Origin: a virus
Virus record (IMG/VR): IMGVR_UViG_3300046169_000053
Coordinates: 1 to 31,480 of that record
Length of the DNA: 31,480 nt
Strand: one strand, 5' to 3'
Shown: in pieces, positions 1-31,480 of the stretch
Numbering within the stretch: position 1 is the first letter of the stretch
How the letters are laid out: the number at the start of each line of letters is the position of its first letter
Position numbers and translations under genes: made by a program
The notes under the pieces: generated by a model
Seen by the model: the letters and a program-made list of their open reading frames with translations, nothing else
Told to the model about the DNA's origin: nothing
Database searches by the model: none

Positions 1-13
1 CTTATTGTAGCTT

Positions 14-53
14 AATGTTAACTTAATGTTAAGAAATACGCATCCAATGTTAA
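14..53 (-). promoter_or_regulatory. TTAACATT operator array at left end
   Basis: AATGTTAA (TTAACATT on the coding strand) begins at 14, 25 and 46, so the copies are 11 and 21 bases apart, one and two helical turns. Similar arrays lie at 1522-1551 and 30299-30328, directly against the -33 box of leftward promoters. Here no -7 box lies inside the window to the left. If position 1 follows 31480, the TATGTTTG box at 31467-31474 falls at the expected distance. It is probably the operator for the 31443 transcription unit. Confidence 0.6.
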
Positions 54-71
54 GAAATTGTAAACAGAAAA

Positions 72-112
72 GCCCTACACCAATGTAGGAAAAATCCTAC
101 GGGGTGTAAGGC
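72..112 (-). terminator. Long hairpin terminator of the left-end operon
   Basis: An outer stem (CCTACACC with GGTGTAAGG) encloses an inner stem (TGTAGGA with TCCTAC). On the minus strand the hairpin is followed by TTTTCTGTTT. It lies downstream of the last gene of the 1491-258 operon, as an intrinsic terminator should. Confidence 0.75.
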
Positions 113-120
113 AAAACCTA

Positions 121-212
121 CTGCGTTTAACGATAGACCTACTGCGTTTAACGATAGGGAAAACCCTACTGCGTTTAAGAACCTACTGCGTTTAAGAACC
201 TACTGCGTTTAA
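121..212 (+). repeat. Five tandem copies of CTGCGTTTAA
   Basis: Exact copies start at 121, 142, 169, 186 and 203, with spacings of 21, 27, 17 and 17. The longer unit is roughly CCTACTGCGTTTAAGA. All copies share one orientation. The array lies in the 3' untranslated part of the 1491-258 operon, between its last stop codon and the terminator hairpin. Spacers are absent or trivial, so this is not a CRISPR array. Confidence 0.9.
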
Positions 213-257
213 GAATTACATTTTTATTTTCTTAAGCACTCGAGCAAAAAAAATTTT

Positions 258-542
258 TCAAATATACATCGCATCGTAATCGTGAATCGATTCCCAATAT
301 TTTACTGCGTTCTTATAACTTCCTGTTGATCCTGCCCTGACTTCATCACGTGAAGGAATATAATTGCCATACGCATCCTTGTGGCTTTGCTTAGGCAGCA
401 TACAAGCTCCGGAGCTTAGTAACTCCATCGCTTGCCTTCCTACGGTACCTTCCAGGTGCCATACTGATCCATTGTCTATTAGGCGTTGCATCACATCAAC
501 GCCATTCTCCTTTTGCAGTTTTCTAATCTTCTGATAGTTCAT
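258..542 (-). CDS. Conserved phage hypothetical protein, 94 aa
   Basis: Last gene of the small-gene operon that starts at 1491. It is a soluble protein with no membrane segment. The central GRQAMELLSSGACMLP and the following HKDAYGNYIPSRDEV resemble a hypothetical family I associate with Bacteroidota phages, for which I know no function. Its start lies 20 bases inside the end of the 523-678 gene, suggesting translational coupling. The downstream gap holds the CTGCGTTTAA array and the terminator. Confidence 0.75.
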   Translation of the reverse strand: MNYQKIRKLQKENGVDVMQRLIDNGSVWHLEGTVGRQAMELLSSGACMLPKQSHKDAYGNYIPSRDEVRAGSTGSYKNAVKYWESIHDYDAMYI

Positions 543-678
543 TATCCATTAATTTATTCAGTTCGTGTATCTGTTTTTCTATTAGCTTCTTAAAGCTATA
601 TCTAGAGTCCGTGCAGGAATTTATACCTCTCAATAAATCCCTACAGTCCTCGACCAATTTAAGTGTCTCGTTATCCAT
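523..678 (-). CDS. Small hypothetical protein, 51 aa
   Basis: ATG at 678 opens MDNETLKLVEDCRDLLRGIN and the frame ends ...NKLMDNELSED. The sequence is mostly charged and helical, with no transmembrane segment. It overlaps the next gene (start 542) by 20 bases and begins 5 bases after the stop of the 684-788 gene, so it fits the tight operon packing. No function recognised. Confidence 0.55.
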   Translation of the reverse strand: MDNETLKLVEDCRDLLRGINSCTDSRYSFKKLIEKQIHELNKLMDNELSED

Positions 679-683
679 ATTGT

Positions 684-788
684 TTATTCTTCTATATAGT
701 CAAACTCAGCCCATTCAAGGCAATCTCCACATAACTCATCACTCATAAAACTCGGTGCTGCACCGCAGCAATTGCTTACTAATTCCAT
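684..788 (-). CDS. Mini zinc-ribbon-like protein, 34 aa
   Basis: Begins MELVSNCCGAAPSFMSDEL and continues CGDCLEWAEF. The paired cysteines (CC at 7-8, CxxC at about 20-23) match a very small zinc-ribbon pattern (SNCCGA...CxxC.E) common in phages of Bacteroidota. Probably binds zinc; partner unknown. It starts just after the stop of the 790-1062 gene. Confidence 0.65.
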   Translation of the reverse strand: MELVSNCCGAAPSFMSDELCGDCLEWAEFDYIEE

Positions 789-789
789 A

Positions 790-1062
790 TTATTCGCTTA
801 AAGATTTACGTCCACGCTTACCTTTATAATCGCTAGCAAGCTCCTTCTTGAAGTTTACGTACTTATTTAGTTCGTGAGCCTCTTCTTGTTCTATGGCCTG
901 CTTGGCCATTCTATATAGAGATGGAATATCTTCCAATAACGCTCTTGCGTCAAACTCTATATATGCAGAATCTTCAGGGTCAAACCCTATTGATTGTATA
1001 TGTACAACTCCTGGAGAGGTGTACAATTCTGTCGTCTTTAATATAAATAGTTCTTTACTCAT
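790..1062 (-). CDS. Hypothetical protein, 90 aa
   Basis: I place the start at the ATG at 1062 (MSKELFILKTTELY), just after the stop of the preceding gene at 1064; an upstream in-frame start at 1089 would overlap that gene. The N-terminal half looks like beta strands (GVVHIQSIGF, SAYIEFDARAL), the C-terminal half is helical, and the tail is basic (KGKRGRKSLSE), which may contact nucleic acid. No family recognised. Confidence 0.7.
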   Translation of the reverse strand: MSKELFILKTTELYTSPGVVHIQSIGFDPEDSAYIEFDARALLEDIPSLYRMAKQAIEQEEAHELNKYVNFKKELASDYKGKRGRKSLSE

Positions 1063-1063
1063 C

Positions 1064-1351
1064 TTATATAAATTTAATTGTTTTACCATTTACTTTTGCT
1101 TCTATGAGCGTGTTTAAATTAATCATCTTAAACGACTGCTGCTGCATATCGTATACGACCATCAATCCTTTTGATGCCGGATCAAAGGACATACCTTTGC
1201 CCGTCACACCTTTTTTAACGGCCCTGCGGCAGTTAATAGTTCTAATAGTGCCATCCTTCTTTTCGAATGTAGCACTGAAAATTTTACCACCTTTAGTGGC
1301 CTCCTTTAGTTTATCCACCTTTGTTTGTGGTGCTGTTAATATCCAAGTCAT
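1064..1351 (-). CDS. SH3-barrel (WYL_2/DUF2693-like) protein, 95 aa
   Basis: The core, FEKKDGTIRTINCRRAVKKG followed by VTGKGMSFDP and a YDM...FKMINLNTL strand, matches the pattern of small SH3-like beta-barrel phage proteins (WYL_2/DUF2693). The family is common in phages and its role is not established. Its ATG overlaps the TAA of the preceding gene (TAATG at 1351), so translation is probably coupled. Confidence 0.75.
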   Translation of the reverse strand: MTWILTAPQTKVDKLKEATKGGKIFSATFEKKDGTIRTINCRRAVKKGVTGKGMSFDPASKGLMVVYDMQQQSFKMINLNTLIEAKVNGKTIKFI

Positions 1352-1491
1352 TATATAGTGATTTTAAGTGTTATACCTTTATTATTTATTTTTACCTCTT
1401 TCGCTTCCTTAGCGAGATTAGCTACTGTCTTAGCGTCTTGCGGATTAAAGCCCTGGGCTTTCAATACGCTTTGTAGTGTTGGTTTCTTCAT
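1351..1491 (-). CDS. Small hypothetical protein, first gene of left operon, 46 aa
   Basis: Starts ATG at 1491 with MKKPTLQSVLKAQGFNPQDA and ends ...GITLKITI, overlapping the next gene at TAATG. The N-terminal 30 residues are probably helical. The start codon lies only 4 bases after the -7 box of the promoter at 1496-1523, so the mRNA may be leaderless or nearly so. No function recognised. Confidence 0.65.
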   Translation of the reverse strand: MKKPTLQSVLKAQGFNPQDAKTVANLAKEAKEVKINNKGITLKITI

Positions 1492-1495
1492 AGGG

Positions 1496-1523
1496 CAAAT
1501 ATATAAAGCCCTAGGTAATCCAA
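1496..1523 (-). promoter_or_regulatory. Bacteroidota-type promoter for the 1491-258 operon
   Basis: On the minus strand a TTG at 1523-1521 is separated by 17 bases from TATATTTG at 1503-1496, followed by C. This fits the Bacteroidota -33/-7 consensus (TTTG...TAnnTTTG). Only 4 bases separate the -7 box from the ATG at 1491. Confidence 0.7.
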
Positions 1524-1551
1524 TGTTACGTTAACGTTAAGAAATTGTTAA
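1522..1551 (-). promoter_or_regulatory. Three operator half-sites with 11-bp period
   Basis: Octamers AATGTTAC, AACGTTAA and ATTGTTAA start at 1522, 1533 and 1544, an exact 11-bp period. The first overlaps the -33 box. The layout repeats at 30299-30328, so these are probably sites for one shared regulator. Confidence 0.6.
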
Positions 1552-1552
1552 G

Positions 1553-1584
1553 TGTCGTTTCTGTCGGATGTGTCGGATGTGTCG
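1553..1584. repeat. Four TGTCG repeats with 9-bp period
   Basis: TGTCG occurs at 1553, 1562, 1571 and 1580, exactly 9 bases apart; the two middle units are identical TGTCGGATG. They sit between the operator array and the CTGCGTTTAA pair, as iteron-like binding sites would. Confidence 0.7.
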
Positions 1585-1593
1585 TTTACCCTA

Positions 1594-1624
1594 CTGCGTT
1601 TAAGAGTAACCCTACTGCGTTTAA
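1594..1624 (+). repeat. Two CTGCGTTTAA copies, 21 bases apart
   Basis: Exact copies at 1594-1603 and 1615-1624, each inside CCCTACTGCGTTTAA. They lie downstream of the terminase stop and upstream of the 1491 operon promoter. The 21-base spacing matches the pairs at 121/142 and 11647/11668. Confidence 0.9.
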
Positions 1625-1646
1625 TGATAAATCCCCGACTCTGAGA

Positions 1647-1669
1647 GGTCTTAAGTAAGCTGAAAGACC
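1647..1669. repeat. Inverted repeat after terminase gene
   Basis: GGTCTT (1647-1652) and AAGACC (1664-1669) form a 6-bp stem with an 11-base loop in the gap after the terminase gene. No T-tract follows on the minus strand, so a terminator role is doubtful. I see no gene between 1625 and 1751. Confidence 0.4.
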
Positions 1670-1751
1670 AAACAAAACCGAGGATGTTACCTTATGAATA
1701 AATATGTAACCCACATATCTTGACACAACAAATATACAAAAATATTTTAAA

Positions 1752-2964
1752 CTACCTAATAGTATAAGAACCTTTTGTGCGATTTACTAAAACATATTGA
1801 GCTGCATACCTGATAGCATCAATACAGTGATTCCATTTATCTACAGGCTTTGTCTGTCCTTTAGTAGCCCATACATAGTTATTAAGCTCTTTAATCAACT
1901 CTGTGGAGTCTGGGTCAATAATCAGGTCATAGTCTTGTAAGAGTGCGATACCGGACAAGATAGACCCACTGCGTTTAACGGTCGGTCTAATGTTACATCC
2001 CTTCAGCTTAATCTCCTTAATCAATCGTGGCTCTGCAGAGTCCGACACTATGAGGTGCGGACCTGCATAACGAATATTAAAGTCTGCTATTTGTGTAGTA
2101 GACATTCCTGTCCTGGCATACATTACCTTCAGGAATATCCGCTTATTGCCTTTATCGATGGCCAGCTTCACAAGTGTGGTGGGGTCAACAGAGAAACCGA
2201 AATCCTGTCCGAAGATGGTCTCATAGTTATCGTTAAACTCTCCTACTCTCCAGTTGGTAAATATAACCCCTTCTTGCTTTTCCATCCACCCACCAAGTAT
2301 TTGGTGTGTGTACTTCTCAGGTCTACGTCTACGTATCTCTGCTATCTGATTCAGGAACGACTGCGACAGGTTATCAGTGTTATCTAAGTATGTGGTATGT
2401 ATATATGTAATGCCTGACTTAATACCGTTGAATCCTTCAGGGATATCTCTGTTGGCGTAGAAGCGTCCCCAAATCCAGTGTTCTTTAGTGGTTGGGTTAA
2501 GTATCAGGATAACCCTATTAGGTTTAGTCTTCACCCTAACAGACTGGTCAATCTTATCGAATGTGTCCTCGTCTATCAGCTCCTCAGCTTCATCCAGGAC
2601 AAAGGTGGTTATTGCGTTTAACGACTTTGAGTGATGCTGTCTGATTCCCTGAGGCGGTGCGTATCCCCTTAAACATAATCGATGAGCCTGTCTTGATATT
2701 TGTTATCTCGTCCTTCGTTATGCGAAAGTCCTCGACAACTCCCATAAGCTCTAGCTTCTCAATGAACTCAGGTATAATCGATGAAGATGCAGATACCATC
2801 GTGTACCGTGTAAATAGTACCTTGTGTCCTTTCTCGTATGTTAGGAGCAACAGGAACACGTTAACAGCAAAAGACTTACCAGACCCTCGACCACCTGTGG
2901 TGATAAAGTATCTGGAGTCATTACCAAATGATTTATACTTCGGGTTCAGATTTGGTACCTTCAT
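1752..2964 (-). CDS. terL: Terminase large subunit, one frameshift
   Basis: DNA-packaging motor ATPase and nuclease, about 403 aa when repaired. N-terminal ATPase: Walker A TGGRGSGKSFAVN near residue 23 and Walker B FVLDEAEEL near residue 130. C-terminal RNase H-like nuclease: acidic residues in GQDFGFSVDP, IVSDSAEPRLIKEI and NHCIDAIRYAAQY. The frame breaks at an AAA run (2626-2628): before it reads ...NQTASLK, and after dropping one base it continues SLNAITTFVLDEAEEL. Without repair the protein stops after 124 aa and loses Walker B and the nuclease. It overlaps the small-subunit candidate by 32 bases. The 10-mer CTGCGTTTAA occurs inside it at 1969. Confidence 0.93.
1969..1978 (+). repeat. 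CTGCGTTTAA inside terminase gene
   Basis: Exact copy of the dispersed 10-mer, read on the coding strand as part of codons for VKRS in the nuclease domain. Confidence 0.85.
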
Positions 2965-3355
2965 CTTCGGGTGTAATGTCGATTATGTCTTCTATTTCTT
3001 TTGGCTTCTCTGAGCCTGTAAAGATGTTTACGATGGAGAAGTCTATATCCTTTGCTTGGGACAGGGCATCAGGATTATCCATTGCTTTACCGTATACGTA
3101 CTCAATAACCATCTTACGGTCGTACTGCGAGTCTTGTGCCTTTTCCGCAACCATCTTCCAGAAGTTAGCCTCAGACCCATAAACCTCTTCTATCGCATTG
3201 GTAGCAAGTATCTTTGACCTGTTCTTCTTAGCCTTGTTTATATTGGCAGGAGTAGCCATAGTCTTCCGAACAAGTGCATCGCCACGCTTTGCACCGTTGC
3301 CCTTCCGACCATCGGTCTTCTTCATATACTTACGCTCTGGCTTTCGTCTAGGCAT
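2933..3355 (-). CDS. terS: Probable terminase small subunit, 140 aa
   Basis: The protein precedes and overlaps the large terminase gene (start 2964). It has a very basic N-terminus (MPRRKPERKYMKKTDGRKG), a helical middle (KILATNAIEEVYGSEANFWK) and an acidic tail (EDIIDITPEDEGTKSEPEV). Basic DNA-binding and acidic ATPase-contacting ends suit a small terminase, but I recognise no diagnostic HTH motif, so the call rests mainly on position. The ATG overlaps the stop codon of the methyltransferase gene. Confidence 0.6.
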   Translation of the reverse strand: MPRRKPERKYMKKTDGRKGNGAKRGDALVRKTMATPANINKAKKNRSKILATNAIEEVYGSEANFWKMVAEKAQDSQYDRKMVIEYVYGKAMDNPDALSQAKDIDFSIVNIFTGSEKPKEIEDIIDITPEDEGTKSEPEV

Positions 3356-4355
3356 ACACTACTCTTTTTATTCTTTCAGCTACAGATGCAACAACATCTA
3401 CTGTTACTGCGTTTCCACACATCTTGTAACGCTGTGTGTCACTTATCATTCCTTCAGTACCTTGCTTAGTCCAATCATCTGGAAAGCCTTGTAGCCTTTC
3501 ACATTCGATTGGTGTTAGTCTTCTAATTTTAGTTGACTCTATAACCGCTTGATTACAAGCTGTATCTAAAGTCTGGGCTACACCCTTACCAACTCTTCCC
3601 CTTCTAGTTTTTGAATTAGGCACAGAATAATTTATACTATCACCTTCTTCAGCTACTTCATATCCTTTTGAGGTTGCTGAGTTTACTCTTATTTCTTGTG
3701 CATCGAGTTGACGTTCAATAATGTAACTTCCGTTTCCGTCTGCTCCGTATCTTGTTGTGAGCGTACAGGTGTTTCCTTGTTGTCCCTGTAGTTCATCAGT
3801 CTGTTTACTACTTTCTCTGATAGGAAATATTTGTCCTCTACTTCCGTCTCCAAGATATCCGACAAGGTAGATTCTCTCTCTGTTTTGGGGTAGAAACCAC
3901 TTTGTATTAAGCAATTGCCATTCGAGTCTATAACCCCCAATGTTGGCAAACGCTTGCAGGATTGCCGCAAAGTCTTGGCGATTGTTTGAGGAGAATGTTC
4001 CTTTAACATTTTCCCAGACAAAAACACGAGGTCTCTTTTCTCTGATGAGTCTAATTGCTTCACTGATAAGGCTACTTCGCTCGCCCCCAAGCCCTTTACG
4101 TTTTCCAGCAAGGCTGAAGTCTTGACAAGGGCTTCCGAAAGTGATAAGGTCGATGTCGGGGAGGTCTCCTCCACGAACATCCGTAACTGATCCGACATAA
4201 TTACTATCTTTAAATTTATCTTTATATACTTGTATTGCGTACTTATCTATCTCACTAAAGTAAGAGTTAATCTTGAATCCTGCACGCTCGAATCCTAAAT
4301 GGAATCCACCTATTCCTGAGAACAAGTCTAAGTGATTAATTTCTACTTCCTTCAT
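3348..4355 (-). CDS. C5-cytosine DNA methyltransferase (Dcm-like), 335 aa
   Basis: Transfers a methyl group from S-adenosylmethionine to cytosine C5. All main motifs are in order: I (HLDLFSGIGGFHLGFERAGF), IV with the catalytic Cys (FGSPCQDFSLAGKRKGLGG), VI (WENVKG), VIII (QNRERIYLVGYLG), the short target-recognition region, IX (LTPIECERLQGFPDDW) and X (KMCGNAVTV). I chose MKEVEINHLDL at 4355, which overlaps the preceding gene by 20 bases; a longer start at 4388 adds residues foreign to the family. No cognate endonuclease is adjacent, so it is probably an orphan enzyme protecting phage DNA. The recognition site cannot be read from sequence. Confidence 0.95.
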   Translation of the reverse strand: MKEVEINHLDLFSGIGGFHLGFERAGFKINSYFSEIDKYAIQVYKDKFKDSNYVGSVTDVRGGDLPDIDLITFGSPCQDFSLAGKRKGLGGERSSLISEAIRLIREKRPRVFVWENVKGTFSSNNRQDFAAILQAFANIGGYRLEWQLLNTKWFLPQNRERIYLVGYLGDGSRGQIFPIRESSKQTDELQGQQGNTCTLTTRYGADGNGSYIIERQLDAQEIRVNSATSKGYEVAEEGDSINYSVPNSKTRRGRVGKGVAQTLDTACNQAVIESTKIRRLTPIECERLQGFPDDWTKQGTEGMISDTQRYKMCGNAVTVDVVASVAERIKRVVYA

Positions 4356-4524
4356 ATATCCTATCGTATAATTCCCATATAGCATCATACCATTCGGTTT
4401 TGCTATATATCTTTTCTCCTAATTTAGTCTGACCCTTATACTCTATTTGTATACGGTAATCCAATCCTTCAGGGATTGGGTATATCTTATATCCTTTATT
4501 GAAACAATAACTTTGAGCTTCCAT
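4336..4524 (-). CDS. Small hypothetical protein, 62 aa
   Basis: I place the start at MEAQSYCFNKGYKIYPIPEG (4524), 4 bases after the stop of the DnaA-like gene; an upstream in-frame start at 4590 would give 84 aa and a 62-base overlap. The sequence looks like a small beta-rich domain (YRIQIEYKGQTKLGE) ending in a helix (WYDAIWELYDRIYEGS). It overlaps the methyltransferase start. No function recognised. Confidence 0.65.
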   Translation of the reverse strand: MEAQSYCFNKGYKIYPIPEGLDYRIQIEYKGQTKLGEKIYSKTEWYDAIWELYDRIYEGSRN

Positions 4525-4528
4525 ACTC

Positions 4529-5104
4529 CTAGAAGCCTGTAACCGTTTCGTAAGAGCCGATAACTTTGGTTTCTTGGTTCTTCGGTGCAATTTTAAATAC
4601 TTTTAACATTGTTAATATTCTGAACTCAGCAGTCTCTATGTGTTGGCTAGGAATTTGATTCACAAGGTCCACAAGTACCTCAACCTCTTCACGATAAGGT
4701 TTAGCATCCTTTAATCTTAACTGAAGGTCGGTTATTTTGTTTTTCAGTTCATCTATCATTAGGTCTCTTTCATCTACACTTGAATAGACATCTCCAACGC
4801 TTTCAAATACCTCAACGCACTTAGTGTACATCTTTTTGTTTAGTGGGGAACCAAGTATGTCATACTCGAATTTACTTAAAGAATACAGTGCCGTAGCGTG
4901 ATCCTTACCCATAAACTTAGCTACATAGGACTTAGCACCCTTCTCCATACCTATCTTACAAAGGTAGTTGTATGCCACCTTATAAAATATGGAACGGGCC
5001 ATAACATTCTTATGGTCTCTTACATCACTCTTTAAGTCTCTACCGGTTACAGTTGATACTATCTTTTCTATTCTACTTACCTCTTGGGCTATCTCATTAT
5101 TCAT
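4529..5104 (-). CDS. DnaA domain IV-like DNA-binding protein, 191 aa
   Basis: Residues about 9-80 resemble the C-terminal DNA-binding domain of DnaA: RIEKIVSTVTGRDL, then VMARSIFYKVAYNYL, then the signature-like GKDHATALYSLSKFE (DnaA has GRDHSTV...). There is no AAA+ ATPase domain. Residues 110-140 look coiled-coil (DLMIDELKNKITDLQLRLK). It may bind DnaA boxes and aid or redirect replication initiation. The gene overlaps its upstream neighbour by 8 bases. Confidence 0.75.
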   Translation of the reverse strand: MNNEIAQEVSRIEKIVSTVTGRDLKSDVRDHKNVMARSIFYKVAYNYLCKIGMEKGAKSYVAKFMGKDHATALYSLSKFEYDILGSPLNKKMYTKCVEVFESVGDVYSSVDERDLMIDELKNKITDLQLRLKDAKPYREEVEVLVDLVNQIPSQHIETAEFRILTMLKVFKIAPKNQETKVIGSYETVTGF

Positions 5105-5381
5105 CGTTGTCTTTGTTTAAATATATTTGAATTGTTAGTGTAGTACATAACTGACAGGCCAACAGTATTCCCTTACACTCCTCGTAAGCTTCCAGCTCCT
5201 CAAACAAGTTTATACTGACGTACAGCTCTTTTAATGGAACTCCGGCTATTATATCTTGGCAAGTAAGTATGAAGTAATCTCTTTCTATAGAAGTGTCAAA
5301 ATCCCACTCCGTCAATATAGTTTCCAATTGCCTCGCTAACTTTCTCGTAACCTCGTTGTATGTCATCGGGTGTTGCGTCAT
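5097..5381 (-). CDS. Hypothetical protein, 94 aa
   Basis: The frame overlaps the end of the nuclease gene by 86 bases, so the true start may be internal; in-frame TTG codons (for example at LETILTEWDF) lie nearer the nuclease stop. The body is helical and acidic, with three cysteines (EECKGILLACQLCTTLTI). The end overlaps the start of the DnaA-like gene. No family recognised. Confidence 0.55.
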   Translation of the reverse strand: MTQHPMTYNEVTRKLARQLETILTEWDFDTSIERDYFILTCQDIIAGVPLKELYVSINLFEELEAYEECKGILLACQLCTTLTIQIYLNKDNDE

Positions 5382-6075
5382 ATGTTTTTACTTTCAGTGT
5401 CTTTTTGTCTACAATAACAAAGGTAAACATTTTTTTCTTAAATATGGTCATATAAATGTATGCTTGTGCATCATATCCGTAAAATTCCATATTATAGTGC
5501 CAAGAATCTATATCGGATGTCGTCTTAAGGTCGACAATACGATCACCATTCAGGCAGTCTGCTTTGGCTCTGAAGGGGAGTCCATCAACGTATCCGATTC
5601 CTGGTAGCTCGTATTCACCTCCTGTAAATAATTCATTTGCTGTTGGGTTGTCCAAAACAGCATCAACAATGCTTTGCGCCCATACTTTCTCCTTAGATAG
5701 CATAATCTCTTTACCTTCCAAAGAAGGGTCTTTAACAGCTTCCTTATAGCCTTTGTTACGCCTAGTAGCCACATCAACAAAATGGTAATAGTCATCTAAT
5801 TTATCTTTTTCTAATAGTGAAACGTGAATAAGCCTACCATCTCTGAGCGGCTTCATATTACTATCTAAAGGTTCTCGGTTGCCTAAGTAGCTGTCGATAC
5901 CCTCTAGTAATTTCTTGCAGGACGATGAGGACAGGGATGCCTTGTTTAGGTATCCGTAGTAGAACTCATTATCGTGCATCTTTTCGACTATATCATCTAT
6001 AGCCCAGTCGGTACCATCAAGCAGCTTTATATTATCCACGATTGAGTAGTGTTTCCTATTGTTACATCTATCCAC
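5296..6075 (-). CDS. PD-(D/E)XK exonuclease (DUF3799/ExoVIII-like), about 259 aa
   Basis: Probably a DNA end-resecting exonuclease that pairs with the ERF annealing protein. Core motif: GLPFRAKADCLNGDRIVDLK (D in KADCL, then D-L-K) and the following YGYDAQAYIY, as in Cas4/RecB-type PD-(D/E)XK nucleases of the DUF3799 group. The N-terminal NKASLSSSSCKKLLEG is also typical. The frame opens with GTG at 6075 inside a 36-bp tandem duplication; ATG at 5979 (MHDNEFYYGY) is the alternative. I cannot decide the start from sequence. Confidence 0.85.
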   Translation of the reverse strand: MDRCNNRKHYSIVDNIKLLDGTDWAIDDIVEKMHDNEFYYGYLNKASLSSSSCKKLLEGIDSYLGNREPLDSNMKPLRDGRLIHVSLLEKDKLDDYYHFVDVATRRNKGYKEAVKDPSLEGKEIMLSKEKVWAQSIVDAVLDNPTANELFTGGEYELPGIGYVDGLPFRAKADCLNGDRIVDLKTTSDIDSWHYNMEFYGYDAQAYIYMTIFKKKMFTFVIVDKKTLKVKTYDATPDDIQRGYEKVSEAIGNYIDGVGF

Positions 6076-6320
6076 GATTGAGTAATGTTTCTTGTTGTTA
6101 CATCTATAATTCTTTTAAGGTCAGATTTAGAATCAATACTCACATCTAATCTACCTATAGAAAACGAAACAAAAAATGTATCCACAATAACATCGTGTAT
6201 ATAAGCATATAGAAGCGTGTTGTTTTTGTATATATATTCGTATTCTATACCGTCTTCATCTATTCTCTTAAATCCTAATTCAATTAAATCTTCTTTTTTT
6301 ATATCTCTAACTTTTTCCAT
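6027..6320 (-). CDS. Hypothetical protein with duplicated 12-aa tail, 97 aa
   Basis: Starts MEKVRDIKKEDLIELGFKRI and contains beta-like strands (EYEYIYKNNTLLYAYIH). The C-terminus repeats a 12-residue unit, DVTTRNITQSWI then DVTIGNTTQSWI, encoded by the tandem 36-bp repeat at 6033-6104. The duplication overlaps the start of the exonuclease gene, so it may have remodelled both ends. No function recognised. Confidence 0.7.
   Translation of the reverse strand: MEKVRDIKKEDLIELGFKRIDEDGIEYEYIYKNNTLLYAYIHDVIVDTFFVSFSIGRLDVSIDSKSDLKRIIDVTTRNITQSWIDVTIGNTTQSWII
6033..6104. repeat. 36-bp tandem duplication, two copies
   Basis: Copies at 6033-6068 and 6069-6104 differ at 3 of 36 positions. The length is a multiple of three, so the frame of the 6027-6320 gene is kept. 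It overlaps the exonuclease 5' end. Confidence 0.9.
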
Positions 6321-6444
6321 CTGTTCTGGCTTTAGTGTTTTCCTGCACCATTCTATATATATCTACAACCATTGACTGCAACTGTGCAACATTGCCTTCT
6401 AGTTGTTTAAGCTTCTGTGCTTGGGTAATTCGTTTAGCTTTCAT
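6307..6444 (-). CDS. Small coiled-coil-like protein, 45 aa
   Basis: ATG at 6444 opens MKAKRITQAQKLKQLEGNVA, followed by QLQSMVVDIYRMVQENTKA. The spacing of L, V and M residues suggests one amphipathic helix or coiled coil. It overlaps the stop of the 6434-6658 gene and the start of the 6027-6320 gene, the coupling seen throughout this operon. No function recognised. Confidence 0.6.
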   Translation of the reverse strand: MKAKRITQAQKLKQLEGNVAQLQSMVVDIYRMVQENTKARTDGKS

Positions 6445-6658
6445 TCTCTATTTCCTTTTGCAGATTAGCTAATGCTCTCCAGGCTACTTTAGCTGAGTGC
6501 CTTACGCCATCTGTATCTATTGTCCCTGCATCGATGAGGTGACGCATTAAAGCGTCTAACTCATCTCCAGACTTACTTCTGTCCCAAGCTAATGGCTTAT
6601 CAGGATTGTGCTGTTGCATGTCCTGCATAGCTGCACTTAGCAACTTCTTTAATTGCAT
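6434..6658 (-). CDS. dATP/dGTP diphosphohydrolase N-domain-like (DUF5664), 74 aa
   Basis: The pattern LDALMRHLIDAGTIDTDGVRH followed by KVAWRALANLQKEIE resembles the DUF5664 domain (helix, short loop with D-G-V-H, helix with AAW.AL..LE), found in phage dATP/dGTP diphosphohydrolases and as stand-alone proteins. Here it stands alone. The frame overlaps the preceding gene by 59 bases; later in-frame ATGs at 6628 and 6619 are alternative starts. The assignment is tentative. Confidence 0.55.
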   Translation of the reverse strand: MQLKKLLSAAMQDMQQHNPDKPLAWDRSKSGDELDALMRHLIDAGTIDTDGVRHSAKVAWRALANLQKEIENES

Positions 6659-7178
6659 CAGGAAAGTAATTAATTACCCCTGAATAAACAGGTATCTTTT
6701 TTCTATTCTCCTTCGGAGGATTTACATAGTCACTGTAATCGGACACATATCCTCCACCATAAAACGCTTTTTTAGGATCATTCATAATATTGTTCGCTTC
6801 TTTTATATCTAAGTATGCCACTTCCTTCTCTACTCTAGCCCCATTAGCGAACTCAGTAGTAGCTGGATTTCTTCTGTTGATTTCCCACTTAGGCTCAACC
6901 CAAAATAGATTAAATACGAATACGCCACTTGGAGTGCTACAAATATACATAGGTATATCGAGATTGTCTTCGCAAACCTCAATGATCGCATCAAACTTCT
7001 TTTTTTCAATAAGTAATGTGTCATAATGTTTTCTTCTGCATTTAAGTTCTATACGGTGCCTGCCCTTTGGCGAGTAACAATCCCATCTACTCATTTGGCT
7101 TTTAGCCTTGACAAGGTCCGGATACTTACTGCGTTTAAGAAAGTCGAATAAATCGGCTTCTTTATTTATAGGCTCCAT
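6600..7178 (-). CDS. PD-(D/E)XK-like nuclease, 192 aa
   Basis: Residues about 30-65 read SRWDCYSPKGRHRIELKCRR followed by KHYDTLLIEKKKFDAII. An acidic residue, then E-x-K on a predicted strand, then a helix with conserved K suggests a restriction-endonuclease-like fold. PMYICSTPSGVFVFNL would be the next core strands. The substrate is unknown; a role in recombination or genome processing is inference. The CTGCGTTTAA 10-mer at 7129 encodes part of LKRS near the N-terminus. Confidence 0.6.
   Translation of the reverse strand: MEPINKEADLFDFLKRSKYPDLVKAKSQMSRWDCYSPKGRHRIELKCRRKHYDTLLIEKKKFDAIIEVCEDNLDIPMYICSTPSGVFVFNLFWVEPKWEINRRNPATTEFANGARVEKEVAYLDIKEANNIMNDPKKAFYGGGYVSDYSDYVNPPKENRKKIPVYSGVINYFPDAIKEVAKCSYAGHATAQS
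7129..7138 (+). repeat. CTGCGTTTAA inside nuclease gene
   Basis: Exact copy; the coding strand reads CTTAAACGCAGTAAG (LKRSK) near the protein N-terminus. Confidence 0.85.
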
Positions 7179-7581
7179 ATAATGTTTTTAATGGTTTGAA
7201 TATACTATTAATAAAACAAGAGTTACAGTTCGTCTGCTTTCTATTTTCCCTGAAAACCCTGTTGTAAATCTCGACCATTCGCTTTACTTGGTCAGCATCT
7301 AATCTTCCGACTCCGCTTTCAATTATCTCACTAATGAAGTCATATTCACCCTCAAGTAAGCACTCAGGTTTCTTGTACCTGAATTTCTTATTAAGGATTT
7401 TCTTACGCTGATCACAACCGCAATCTTCTCCAGCTAAGAACTTTACAGCCTTCTTTATTCCTGTAGCTGTAGTTATCTTCTCTATGGTATCACCCAGCCC
7501 TTTTGGGGCTGAGTCATACTTGGCCTTCCACTCTTTGTATGCTTTGGTTCGTTTATCTTTTGGTGCTTCTGGTGTACTCAT
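7162..7581 (-). CDS. Conserved Cys-containing phage protein, 139 aa
   Basis: The segment GLGDTIEKITTATGIKKAVK followed by FLAGEDCGCDQRKKILN is a pattern I associate with phages of Bacteroidota. Cysteines in DCGCD and TNCNSC could form a metal site. The middle (DADQVKRMVEIYNRVF) is helical. No biochemical role is known to me. The ATG overlaps the stop of the small upstream gene, and the 3' end overlaps the nuclease start by 17 bases. Confidence 0.7.
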   Translation of the reverse strand: MSTPEAPKDKRTKAYKEWKAKYDSAPKGLGDTIEKITTATGIKKAVKFLAGEDCGCDQRKKILNKKFRYKKPECLLEGEYDFISEIIESGVGRLDADQVKRMVEIYNRVFRENRKQTNCNSCFINSIFKPLKTLYGAYK

Positions 7582-7718
7582 TTTCCTTTAATTAATGCCC
7601 TATCAACATAAGATGATTTTCTGTTAGTTCTACTGTAGTAGTATGTACTATTAAATTCAGTTGTAGGGATGAATTTTATGTTTTTATTTATCTCTGCTTT
7701 TGTTTTTCTGCGTTTCAT
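7578..7718 (-). CDS. Small basic protein, 46 aa
   Basis: Sequence begins MKRRKTKAEINKNIKFIPTT and ends RALIKGK. It is strongly basic, with a Tyr-rich middle (STYYYSRTN). Both ends overlap neighbours through ATGA junctions: its ATG with the stop of the sigma-factor gene, its TGA with the start at 7581. That arrangement supports translation. It may bind nucleic acid; no family recognised. Confidence 0.65.
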   Translation of the reverse strand: MKRRKTKAEINKNIKFIPTTEFNSTYYYSRTNRKSSYVDRALIKGK

Positions 7719-8275
7719 ATCTTATCGTAATCTTGGTTAAAAAAGTCTTCTATGTCCTCACCGAACTTTTCTTCAATAATCCTTCTGTAGTTCTTGCAAG
7801 AATTATATATGCTCGTAAGTGAAATCTTTGTATCGCTAGCAATGTCTCTAAGAGACTGATTAGTATAGTAGTATAGCTTGAATAGCTTTTGGTCGTACCA
7901 ATGCCAAGTAGAAACTTCCTTATCAATGGCTTCAAATATATTAAAATATGCCTCCTCCATAAGGTCATTTTCCTTTGTTTCTTCTGGAACTTCCGCAAGA
8001 GATGAAAGGATATTGATGCTTTCAGCATTGGAATAGTCTTTACTGATTTCTGTCTTCTGACTCTTTTTAGCATCATAGAACAGGTTGCGTAAAGTGATAT
8101 ATATAAAGTAAGAATTAACCTCACCATCTTTTATTATTTTTTCTGGGTTATCGATATATCTATTTAGTCTTAGGTACATATCTTGGACAATGTCATTAGC
8201 CAGGTGTACATCTTTACAGATAGACACGGCCATTGAAATCCACTCCTTATGCCTCTTGGTTAGTATCTCCCACAT
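7715..8275 (-). CDS. Phage RNA polymerase sigma-70 family factor (ECF-like), 186 aa
   Basis: Residues about 10-70 resemble region 2 (ANDIVQDMYLRLNRYI, then YFIYITLRNLFYDAKKS), which contacts core polymerase and melts the -10 region. Residues about 125-170 resemble region 4 with an HTH (QKLFKLYYYTNQSLRDIA, then ISLTSIYNSCKNYRRII). The acidic linker between them has no extra domain, as in ECF sigmas. It may direct host polymerase to phage promoters; the shared element before four structural units is the obvious candidate target, but that link is inference. Confidence 0.85.
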   Translation of the reverse strand: MWEILTKRHKEWISMAVSICKDVHLANDIVQDMYLRLNRYIDNPEKIIKDGEVNSYFIYITLRNLFYDAKKSQKTEISKDYSNAESINILSSLAEVPEETKENDLMEEAYFNIFEAIDKEVSTWHWYDQKLFKLYYYTNQSLRDIASDTKISLTSIYNSCKNYRRIIEEKFGEDIEDFFNQDYDKI

Positions 8276-11243: not shown

Positions 11244-11647
11244 TTATTTTATACTTCTTTCGTGTATTATTTCAAATGGAAATATGGAATCAGCCTTCAT
11301 ATCATCGTTATCTACATAGATGTAATTGTTGTGTATTCCTATACGGGTAAAGCCAGCTTCAAGCAAGGGCTGCTATTATCCGGTACCGTTTATATGTGTG
11401 TTTGCATTGTATTACGGCTGCTCTGCCGATCAAGTGTGATGAATGCTCAAGTTCGTTTATTTTGCCTCTGCACCCGTAACAGACAAAACCCTTAAGTACT
11501 TTGAACTTTAGCTCGGCTAAATCCCTTGCTTCGTCCAACATCTTCAGGAAATGTCTATCCATATTCTTGAAAGCCTGTAGAGTGCTTACTGCACCACTGA
11601 CAGTCAAATTCTTCGTATTCGAAGTTTTTAAGCTCGTGTATACCCAC
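11244..11647 (-). pseudogene. Degenerate M15-peptidase-like paralogue, two frameshifts
   Basis: Resembles the M15 endolysin at 12188-12544: MDRHFLKMLDEARDLAELKF against MDKRILVMLDEARDKFDKPI, and EAGFTRIGIHNNYIYVDND against DVGFKRIGVAKNFIHADID. Of the three zinc ligands, the His in SSHL remains, but the Asp of AVDIH is replaced (RAAVIQCK) and the last His is Tyr (YIYVD). Frame breaks at 11594-11595 and 11367-11369 are repaired by dropping one base each. The putative GTG start lies inside a CTGCGTTTAA copy. It is either decayed or a non-catalytic wall-binding relative. Confidence 0.65.
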
Positions 11648-11677
11648 TGCGTTTAAGAATTAGCCTACTGCGTTTAA
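11647..11677 (+). repeat. Two CTGCGTTTAA copies, 21 bases apart
   Basis: Exact copies at 11647-11656 and 11668-11677 fill the short gap between the stop at 11681 and the GTG at 11647. Confidence 0.9.
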
Positions 11678-17781: not shown

Positions 17782-17806
17782 AAGCCCCACCGTAAAGGTG
17801 AGGCTT
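17782..17806 (-). terminator. Terminator after tail-tube gene
   Basis: AAGCCTCACC and GGTGGGGCTT pair around a 5-base loop, followed on the minus strand by TTTT. It lies between two CTGCGTTTAA-type copies and the next late element. Confidence 0.85.
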
Positions 17807-17807
17807 A

Positions 17808-17834
17808 CTGCGTTTAAGAACCTACTATGTTTAA
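17808..17834 (+). repeat. CTGCGTTTAA plus variant CTATGTTTAA
   Basis: Exact copy at 17808-17817 and a one-base variant at 17825-17834, 17 apart. The TAA stop of the tail-tube gene lies at the edge of the variant. Confidence 0.85.
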
Positions 17835-18394
17835 GAGTTAGTTCCTTCAGTTACAATTACAGTAGCACTTGACATTCCTGCATATGGGTCAGTAGCCGTT
17901 GGGCTATCAACAAAGTTAGCAGGCGCAGTTTCCTGTGCAGTAAACGTAAGTGTATATCCGCTAAGGTCTCCCATTGTAGCACCCGTTACGATTGTACCAC
18001 CAGATACATCAGCACCGTGTTCTAAACCTACAACCATTACGTTTCCGTTATAGTCTTCTACAGCAATGTGAGGGCGACCAGCAGCCAAGATTTTAATCTC
18101 TTTGTGGTCTTCCTTACTTAGTTTGTGTAGGGTTAGATTTAGTGTTTGCTCATAAAAAGAAGTTCCATTCTCACGAGAAGCATTGATAGTTTGCTCAAGA
18201 GAAGAGTTTCCTTTTACGTCATATTTATAGGCAGTAAAAGTTCCTGACATATCAGAAATTTCGTAGTCTCCGCTAGCAGCATCCGTATAGGATACAGTTC
18301 CGAAGTCACCGAAATCAGTAAAGTAAACGGCTTTTATACCACCTACTACGTCTTTGCAGGGTTCTTTTCTACCTCTAGTTAAATCACAAGCCAT
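17831..18394 (-). CDS. Probable major tail tube protein, 187 aa
   Basis: Starts MACDLTRGRKEPCKDVVGGI then KAVYFTDFGDFGTVSYTDAA. The beta-rich body (YKYDVKGNSSLEQTINASRE, FYEQTLNLTLHKLSKEDHKE) resembles tail-tube proteins of flavobacterial siphophages. Encoded alone between two strong terminators, directly after the capsid gene, which suits a highly expressed protein. Identity as tube rather than another tail protein is inferred from this pattern and position. Confidence 0.7.
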   Translation of the reverse strand: MACDLTRGRKEPCKDVVGGIKAVYFTDFGDFGTVSYTDAASGDYEISDMSGTFTAYKYDVKGNSSLEQTINASRENGTSFYEQTLNLTLHKLSKEDHKEIKILAAGRPHIAVEDYNGNVMVVGLEHGADVSGGTIVTGATMGDLSGYTLTFTAQETAPANFVDSPTATDPYAGMSSATVIVTEGTNS

Positions 18395-30272: not shown

Positions 30273-30300
30273 CAAATGTAGGCAATTTAATACTGCCCAA
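30273..30300 (-). promoter_or_regulatory. Bacteroidota-type promoter for 30243 unit
   Basis: TTG at 30300-30298, 17 bases, TACATTTG at 30280-30273 on the minus strand. The spacing is identical to the promoter at 1496-1523. The start codon follows about 29 bases downstream. Confidence 0.7.
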
Positions 30301-31466: not shown

Positions 31467-31474
31467 CAAACATA
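31467..31474 (-). promoter_or_regulatory. -7 box of promoter spanning the window ends
   Basis: TATGTTTG on the minus strand, followed by TAG, matches TACATTTGTAG at 30273. The -33 and operators are not in the remaining 6 bases; they appear at 12-32 if the ends are joined. Confidence 0.6.
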
Positions 31475-31480
31475 TGGCGC

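Follow-up and report, generated by a model that had tools for sequence, protein, structure and literature searches.

In lambda, cosB is an asymmetric sequence in or next to the terminase genes, and the sigma A promoters of Bacteroidetes carry TTG as their −33 element. The stoperators of cluster A mycobacteriophages (L5, Bxb1) are polar repeats, which two reports describe as asymmetric 13-bp sites in many copies, mostly intergenic and in one orientation relative to transcription (PMC9283540, PMC3029335). For flavobacterial sigma A, the −7 motif TAnnTTTG is placed at −12 to −5 in Flavobacterium psychrophilum (PMC9723704), and intergenic direct repeats of TAACTGA in Beggiatoaceae and some Bacteroidetes were suggested to be the site of a regulator (PMC4679880). 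The locus described here is a 260-base gap that separates two gene sets; besides a promoter, it contains short repeats of two regularly spaced types and a further repeat that points one way. The TAACTGA repeats resemble those of the gap in being short, intergenic and direct, whereas they are 7-mers lying just before start codons and differ in sequence and place.

The window, i.e. the whole stretch of DNA analyzed, is a virus contig record of 31,480 bases from an uncultured marine phage; almost all of its genes are on the minus strand. It encodes terL, portal, holin, endolysin, ERF, exonuclease, RusA and a sigma-factor-like gene, together with a cytosine methyltransferase and GP88, and is taken to be a Bacteroidetes phage; the nearest isolates by terL were the Nonlabens phages P12024S and P12024L (53%), whose gene order is similar. 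Blastn of window positions 1–8000 against 50,697 phage records returned short matches only, in 35 records, and all matches among the 20 listed fell in the methyltransferase gene. This gene (3348–4388), which lies beside terS and was found in 3 of 16 relatives by tblastn, is best taken as a mosaic piece. The 16 relatives were chosen for carrying the repeat, two of them (G001 and G007) looking near-identical, and the ORF calls rest on a simple rule that takes the longest ORF. The ends of the window are joined without a gap in one relative, L151, in which position 7316 corresponds to minus-strand position 31471 and 7327 to position 3; since the ends are contiguous there, the record was interpreted as a circular genome whose sequence has been cut open within a promoter, and the genome looks circular or circularly permuted, though classed as linear. 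The record ends (1–58 and 31467–31480) meet inside a promoter with TAAC units. Regarding terL in other collections, that of phage record OQ791282 (Shigella phage Henu10) scores like the terL of Riemerella phages, suggesting that the host or the record is mislabelled, and terL relatives also occurred in assemblies titled Euryarchaeota and Sulfuricurvum (L278 and L284), which are probably phage contigs that binning assigned to a wrong organism.

Read on the minus strand, the gap runs from the terL stop through a promoter-like box (P1), a hairpin, two copies of TTAAACGCAGTAGG, four CGACA, three TAAC units and promoter P2 to the ATG at 1491. The first-pass annotation had described, within 1496–1624, a promoter with −7/−33 elements, three operators at 11-bp period, four TGTCG at 9-bp period (1553, 1562, 1571 and 1580) and two CTGCGTTTAA at 21-bp spacing, all of which are present at these places, the operator role of the 11-bp units being putative. 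The earlier observation is real, and its extent is larger than described, with the hairpin at 1626–1691, the promoter-like box at 1729–1744, further copies of CTGCGTTTAA and their single orientation in addition. P2 (1523–1496, minus strand) consists of TTGG at 1523–1520 and the −7 box TATATTTG at 1503–1496, with 20 nt from TTGG to the start of the −7 box, and fits the sigma A pattern of TAnnTTTG with TTG about 20 nt upstream. It shares the −7 consensus and the upstream TTGG with Bacteroidetes sigma A promoters, but additionally bears an 11-bp TAAC ladder. If its −7 box spans −12 to −5, as in F. psychrophilum (PMC9723704), the predicted transcription start coincides with the A of the ATG (1491). 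The position of P2 is the same in relatives.

The three 11-bp units (1552–1520, minus strand) are CTTAACAATTT at 1552–1542, CTTAACGTTAA at 1541–1531 and CGTAACATTGG at 1530–1520, the last of which overlaps the −33 element of P2. Three TAAC at 11 bp occurred once in the window (shuffle expectation 0.02, reached in 2 of 100 shuffles), and a TAAC ladder with a −7 box recurred at 30280 and, spanning the record ends, before the GP88 operon. In this latter region, region B (212–1, minus strand), five 14-mers at 212–117 are followed by a hairpin with a T-rich tail (90–73) and a TAAC series (58–14), and the −7 box of the promoter (31474–31467, minus strand) lies across the record ends. Elsewhere in the clade, too, promoters carry the 11-bp ladder. 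Among 63 distinct repeat-to-promoter segments from the window and its relatives, up to four TAAC at 11 bp were found, at least two being imposed by the search pattern. The one-helical-turn spacing and the overlap with the −33 element suggest that the units are operators; literature searches showed no such ladder named among the matches listed. The proposal that a control node stands between the terminase gene and the left operon was supported, in that the order of promoter and ladder is kept in relatives and a like arrangement also precedes the next operon.

P1 (1744–1729, minus strand; TATTTTTGTATATTTG) has no clear −33 element and is conserved across 22 distinct segments from the window and its relatives, which were collected with a search pattern that itself demanded P1. 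The long hairpin between P1 and the repeats (1691–1626, minus strand) is terminator-like with a poor T run, and its RNA fold was evaluated at −26.2 kcal/mol (z −6.4) in the window and −32.6 in a relative. Short forms of it retain a simple stem, 4 of 14 consensus pairs changed on both sides, and Rfam gave no match in window positions 1–3600 at E up to 10.

The 9-bp series of four CGACA (TGTCG on the plus strand; 1584–1553, minus strand) is the sole 4-copy 5-mer ladder of period 7–12 in the window, and none of 60 shuffles yielded one; exact TGTCGNNNNTGTCG was also restricted to this series within the window. The earlier statement that the TGTCG iterons appear only here is correct for the ladder; the 5-mer as such is not unique, with 27 copies on the plus and 16 on the minus strand. 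Conservation of the 9-bp series, whose lack the first-pass annotation had named as refuting, failed in part: over the 63 segments, which mix this node with other nodes, the GACA ladder had at least three steps in 16 (three steps in 3, four in 10, five in 2 and six in 1), two steps in 3 and one or none, i.e. no ladder, in 44. At this node the ladder was found in the closer relatives. The series varies between 2 and 6 units, changes in sequence and is absent in many relatives (L149, L158 and L159, for instance), and there are two 9-bp versions with a common GACA core (CGACACATC and TTGACAAAC); L154 holds a series of another sequence. Cumulative skew fell nearly throughout the window without a turn at the site, a weak test on genomes with genes on one strand, and no replication initiator was identified. 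Since the series is variable in number and sequence and often absent, an essential origin is unlikely, and the origin that had been suggested as an alternative to a control node was rejected on the poor conservation of the series and the skew without a turn. The stretch has the look of a control point rather than of an origin, and the 9-bp array appears to be a variable accessory of it.

The main discovery, and the item worth following, is the 14-mer. Its two exact copies in the gap, TTAAACGCAGTAGG at 1624–1611 and 1603–1590 (minus strand), lie 21 bp apart, and CTACTGCGTTTAA is found exactly at 1591 and 1612. With up to 3 mismatches, CTACTGCGTTTAA had 32 matches in the window, compared with a shuffle mean of 12.1 and a largest value of 20. 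Further pairs on the minus strand lie behind the lysis genes (11643–11677) and at 17804–17834, where the first copy holds the stop codon of the gene at 17831–18394 and an intrinsic terminator follows. All copies in the window point one way. All 16 relatives contained CTACTGCGTTTAA with up to 1 mismatch, 147 copies in total, and within any one record these shared a single orientation; the 14-mer with up to 2 mismatches gave 197 sense and 0 antisense copies over the window and relatives (6 to 17 per record), 136 of the 197 lying outside called ORFs. This 197:0 bias was observed on genomes with nearly all genes on one strand, so that polarity relative to transcription is inseparable from polarity of the genome; the reverse ORFs by which the two might be told apart were too few and doubtful. 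The tandem pattern of the 14-mer was found in 107 stretches of IMG/VR, and a slightly stricter one had 0 matches in the cellular genome collection. P12024S and P12024L carry no copy with 0 or 1 mismatch, and ten terL-bearing loci from cellular assemblies had none with up to 2 mismatches, except for one antisense match with 2 mismatches in L280. Literature searches returned, among the matches listed, only unrelated items for 10-nt pieces of the repeat and nothing on this 14-mer under phage or Bacteroidetes repeats.

The intergenic arrays come directly after gene ends, the first copy often containing the TAA of the stop codon, and are in many cases succeeded by a promoter. Spacings of 17, 21 and 27 bp were observed, which are not all helical multiples, and copy numbers vary among close relatives. 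Terminator-like hairpins accompanied 16 of 52 arrays versus 42 of 184 other gene ends and were thus not clearly commoner at the arrays. In one relative (G012; contig L265, near 3572–3640), the last 14-mer and an inverted copy of it combine into a perfect intrinsic terminator that has a T run, and in G002, as in G012, the last 14-mer forms a terminator-like hairpin with a short inverted copy. In region B of relatives such as L129, L135, L144, G014 and G016, an inverted repeat of the TTATTTAGAATNATTCTAAATAA type stands between the array and the next promoter. As for copies inside genes, the window had 3 with up to 1 mismatch versus 0 in each of 200 synonymous shuffles; in the 13 of 17 records covered by this test, the observed number exceeded every shuffle in 8, one of which (G009) concerns a doubtful ORF. 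In-gene copies mostly lie in the frame reading K-R-S, and some of them, in G004, G006 and G009, fall in short ORFs that overlie arrays and are themselves doubtful.

The 14-mer is closely linked to terL. In the window, terL (1752–2964, minus strand; assigned with PHROGs) is made up of two ORFs in different frames, 1752–2534 and 2590–2964, and that of relatives is a single ORF of about 403 aa; the split is either an assembly error or a real break. A copy lies inside the gene at 1965–1978 (minus strand; TTAAACGCAGTGGG, codons GTT AAA CGC AGT GGG). Among 106 loci found by DNA pattern alone, and not made unique by contig, a tandem array was located 0–700 nt behind the terL stop in 93, which is 93 of the 99 loci holding terL; in 6 the array lay 1.4–2.5 kb behind, and in 7 the fetched piece was without terL. 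In each of the 17 whole records an array adjoins terL; of 150 copies with up to 1 mismatch, 72 lay in the interval from −320 to +700 relative to the terL stop, and in four distant relatives (G009, G010, G013 and G015) all such copies were near terL. The terL gene stands at many distances from the contig ends among records. Both ends of the contigs L265/L266 (G012) hold terL plus an array, with 3 and 4 copies, which is wrap-around assembly with copy-number variation.

In 14 of 17 records, terL contains the in-gene copy at a distance of 213 or 210 nt from the end of the gene, and among 113 distinct terL sequences it was present in 58, lost in 51 and half-kept in 4. Seventeen representatives below 90% nucleotide identity, drawn from the 58 with the copy, had a 16-nt invariant run, TTAAACGCAGTGGGTC, of which 9 nt were the selection criterion itself, and no other invariant run of at least 8 nt. 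The copy is frozen at the nucleotide level while neighbouring codons drift, and its presence changed at least 8 times on a quick tree with the residues of the site masked. Within this essential gene, the copy appears to be subject to selection at the level of the DNA.

The left operon opens with a small ORF of 46 aa (1351–1491, minus strand), followed by a gene with a WYL_2 domain (1064–1351, minus strand; PF10902, E 1.5e-8, over the cut-off), which is found in 12 of 17 records and whose product is a possible regulator. Just before terL lies a candidate small terminase (TerS) gene (2933–3355, minus strand), present in 16 of 16 relatives and not found in P12024; its product is one candidate binder of the 14-mer. 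Its structure prediction by AlphaFold2 had a mean pLDDT of 66, Foldseek gave a best E of 7.3 with no PDB match, and neither a TerS fold nor a DNA-binding motif was demonstrable. An exonuclease homologue showed the same distribution, with 16 of 16 relatives positive in that search and P12024 negative. Phage integrase (PF00589) and HTH_3 repressor (PF01381) were found in 0 of 17 records, the scan for repressors and recombinases covering these two families.

Compared with stoperators, the 14-mer is likewise short, asymmetric, present in many copies and mostly between genes (136 of 197), but it forms tandem arrays at operon ends, has copies coded inside terL and other genes and has fewer copies, with 6 to 17 in a record when 2 mismatches are allowed. 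Stoperators also go with an immunity repressor and lysogeny, in contrast to the 0 of 17 records for integrase and HTH_3 repressor here. The 14-mer may work like a stoperator by analogy; since intergenic place, length and, on genomes with nearly all genes on one strand, polarity match but the lysogeny parts searched for are absent, we did not file it as one. With pac of P22 and SPP1 and lambda cosB it shares asymmetry and a place in or next to the terminase genes, whereas copies also occur at far operon ends and the terminase-linked ones sit in and behind terL.

We tentatively favour, with confidence somewhat short of even, the explanation that this stretch separates two transcription units. 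P2, as a promoter of the host sigma A type, would start the left operon, and a DNA-binding protein on one helix face of the 11-bp TAAC ladder, overlapping the −33 element, would switch it. The hairpin and the two 14-mers would jointly reduce transcription arriving from terL and P1, the 14-mers serving as putative asymmetric protein sites that act, stoperator-like, in one orientation only, and the 9-bp CGACA array would serve as a fast-changing accessory operator. Any such binding or effect is putative, presence, order, polarity and conservation of the elements and selection on the in-terL copy being taken as established. The order of elements kept in relatives, the TAAC ladder and −7 box before other operons, the 197:0 polarity, the arrays behind gene stops, the in-gene copies above shuffles, the terminator-like hairpins from the last copy in G012 and G002 and the frozen in-terL run are all consistent with a transcription boundary. 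On the other hand, hairpins are not clearly enriched at arrays, integrase and HTH_3 are at 0 of 17, operon ends leave the in-gene copies unexplained, the polarity may be one of the genome instead of transcription, and the copy is gone from 51 of 113 terL and half-kept in 4. In addition, about half of the copies (72 of 150) crowd near terL, which fits packaging equally. The link to terL, the terL-only copies in four distant relatives and the TerS-like gene in 16 of 16 make packaging the main rival: the 14-mers would be pac- or cosB-like recognition sites read by the small terminase, with the in-terL copy and the array behind it as the packaging start and other copies as secondary sites. The arrays 0–700 nt behind terL in 93 of 106 loci, with 6 more at 1.4–2.5 kb, and the confinement near terL in G009, G010, G013 and G015 speak for it, as do the TerS candidate, absent from P12024, which is itself without the repeat, and the varied terL-to-contig-end distances and L151 contiguity, as in circularly permuted genomes. 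P22 pac is a 22-bp asymmetric sequence in a terminase gene (PMC9611059). We consider packaging possible but on the unlikely side, as it does not predict the copies that follow lysis and capsid-region genes or lie within other genes, it has no need of the association with gene stops and promoters, and the TerS candidate shows no demonstrable TerS fold or DNA-binding motif.

That the repeats act as RNA, UUAAACGCAGUAGG in mRNA 3′ ends being bound by an RNA-binding protein or small RNA with an effect on message stability or processing, would agree with the mRNA sense of all copies, with spacings of 17, 21 and 27 bp that are not all helical multiples and with stop codons inside the repeat; the fixed frame of in-gene copies, a repeat without visible structure of its own and the lack of an Rfam match (window 1–3600) make this improbable to us. 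A length of 14 nt is long for Chi, and Chi-like or recombination-hotspot sites for a host or phage exonuclease, which would be polar because processing of linear DNA is polar, appear very unlikely given that length, the crowding behind terL and the 0 matches in the cellular collection, in a search that covered the tandem pattern and not single copies, even though one orientation in every record, nucleotide selection on in-gene copies and the exonuclease homologue (16 of 16 relatives, none in P12024) would suit them. Equally slim is the chance of neutral tandem expansion without function: the numbers of 9-bp and 14-mer copies do vary among close relatives, but polarity is fixed, the place behind terL is conserved and the in-terL copy is frozen. 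Least probable of all, to the point of being scarcely credible, is a stack serving as replication origin through 9-bp iterons, for which four short direct repeats in an intergenic gap are not matched by a copy number of 2 to 6, a sequence exchanged (TTGACAAAC type) or absent in relatives and a skew without a turn.

A bolder and rather doubtful idea joins the transcription boundary with packaging: the one-way 14-bp set might be a single recognition code coupling the termination of terminase transcription to the initiation of DNA packaging, its sites lying genome-wide, anchored in and behind terL and kept by selection on DNA, in a phage clade without a recognised integrase or repressor. Polar repeat systems in phages are known from a few cultured groups, and the present one is spread over a large uncultured clade, where it is easily found by the 14-mer. 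It offers a handle on how operons are separated or how DNA is marked for packaging, and the 14-mer provides a marker for assigning contigs to this clade.
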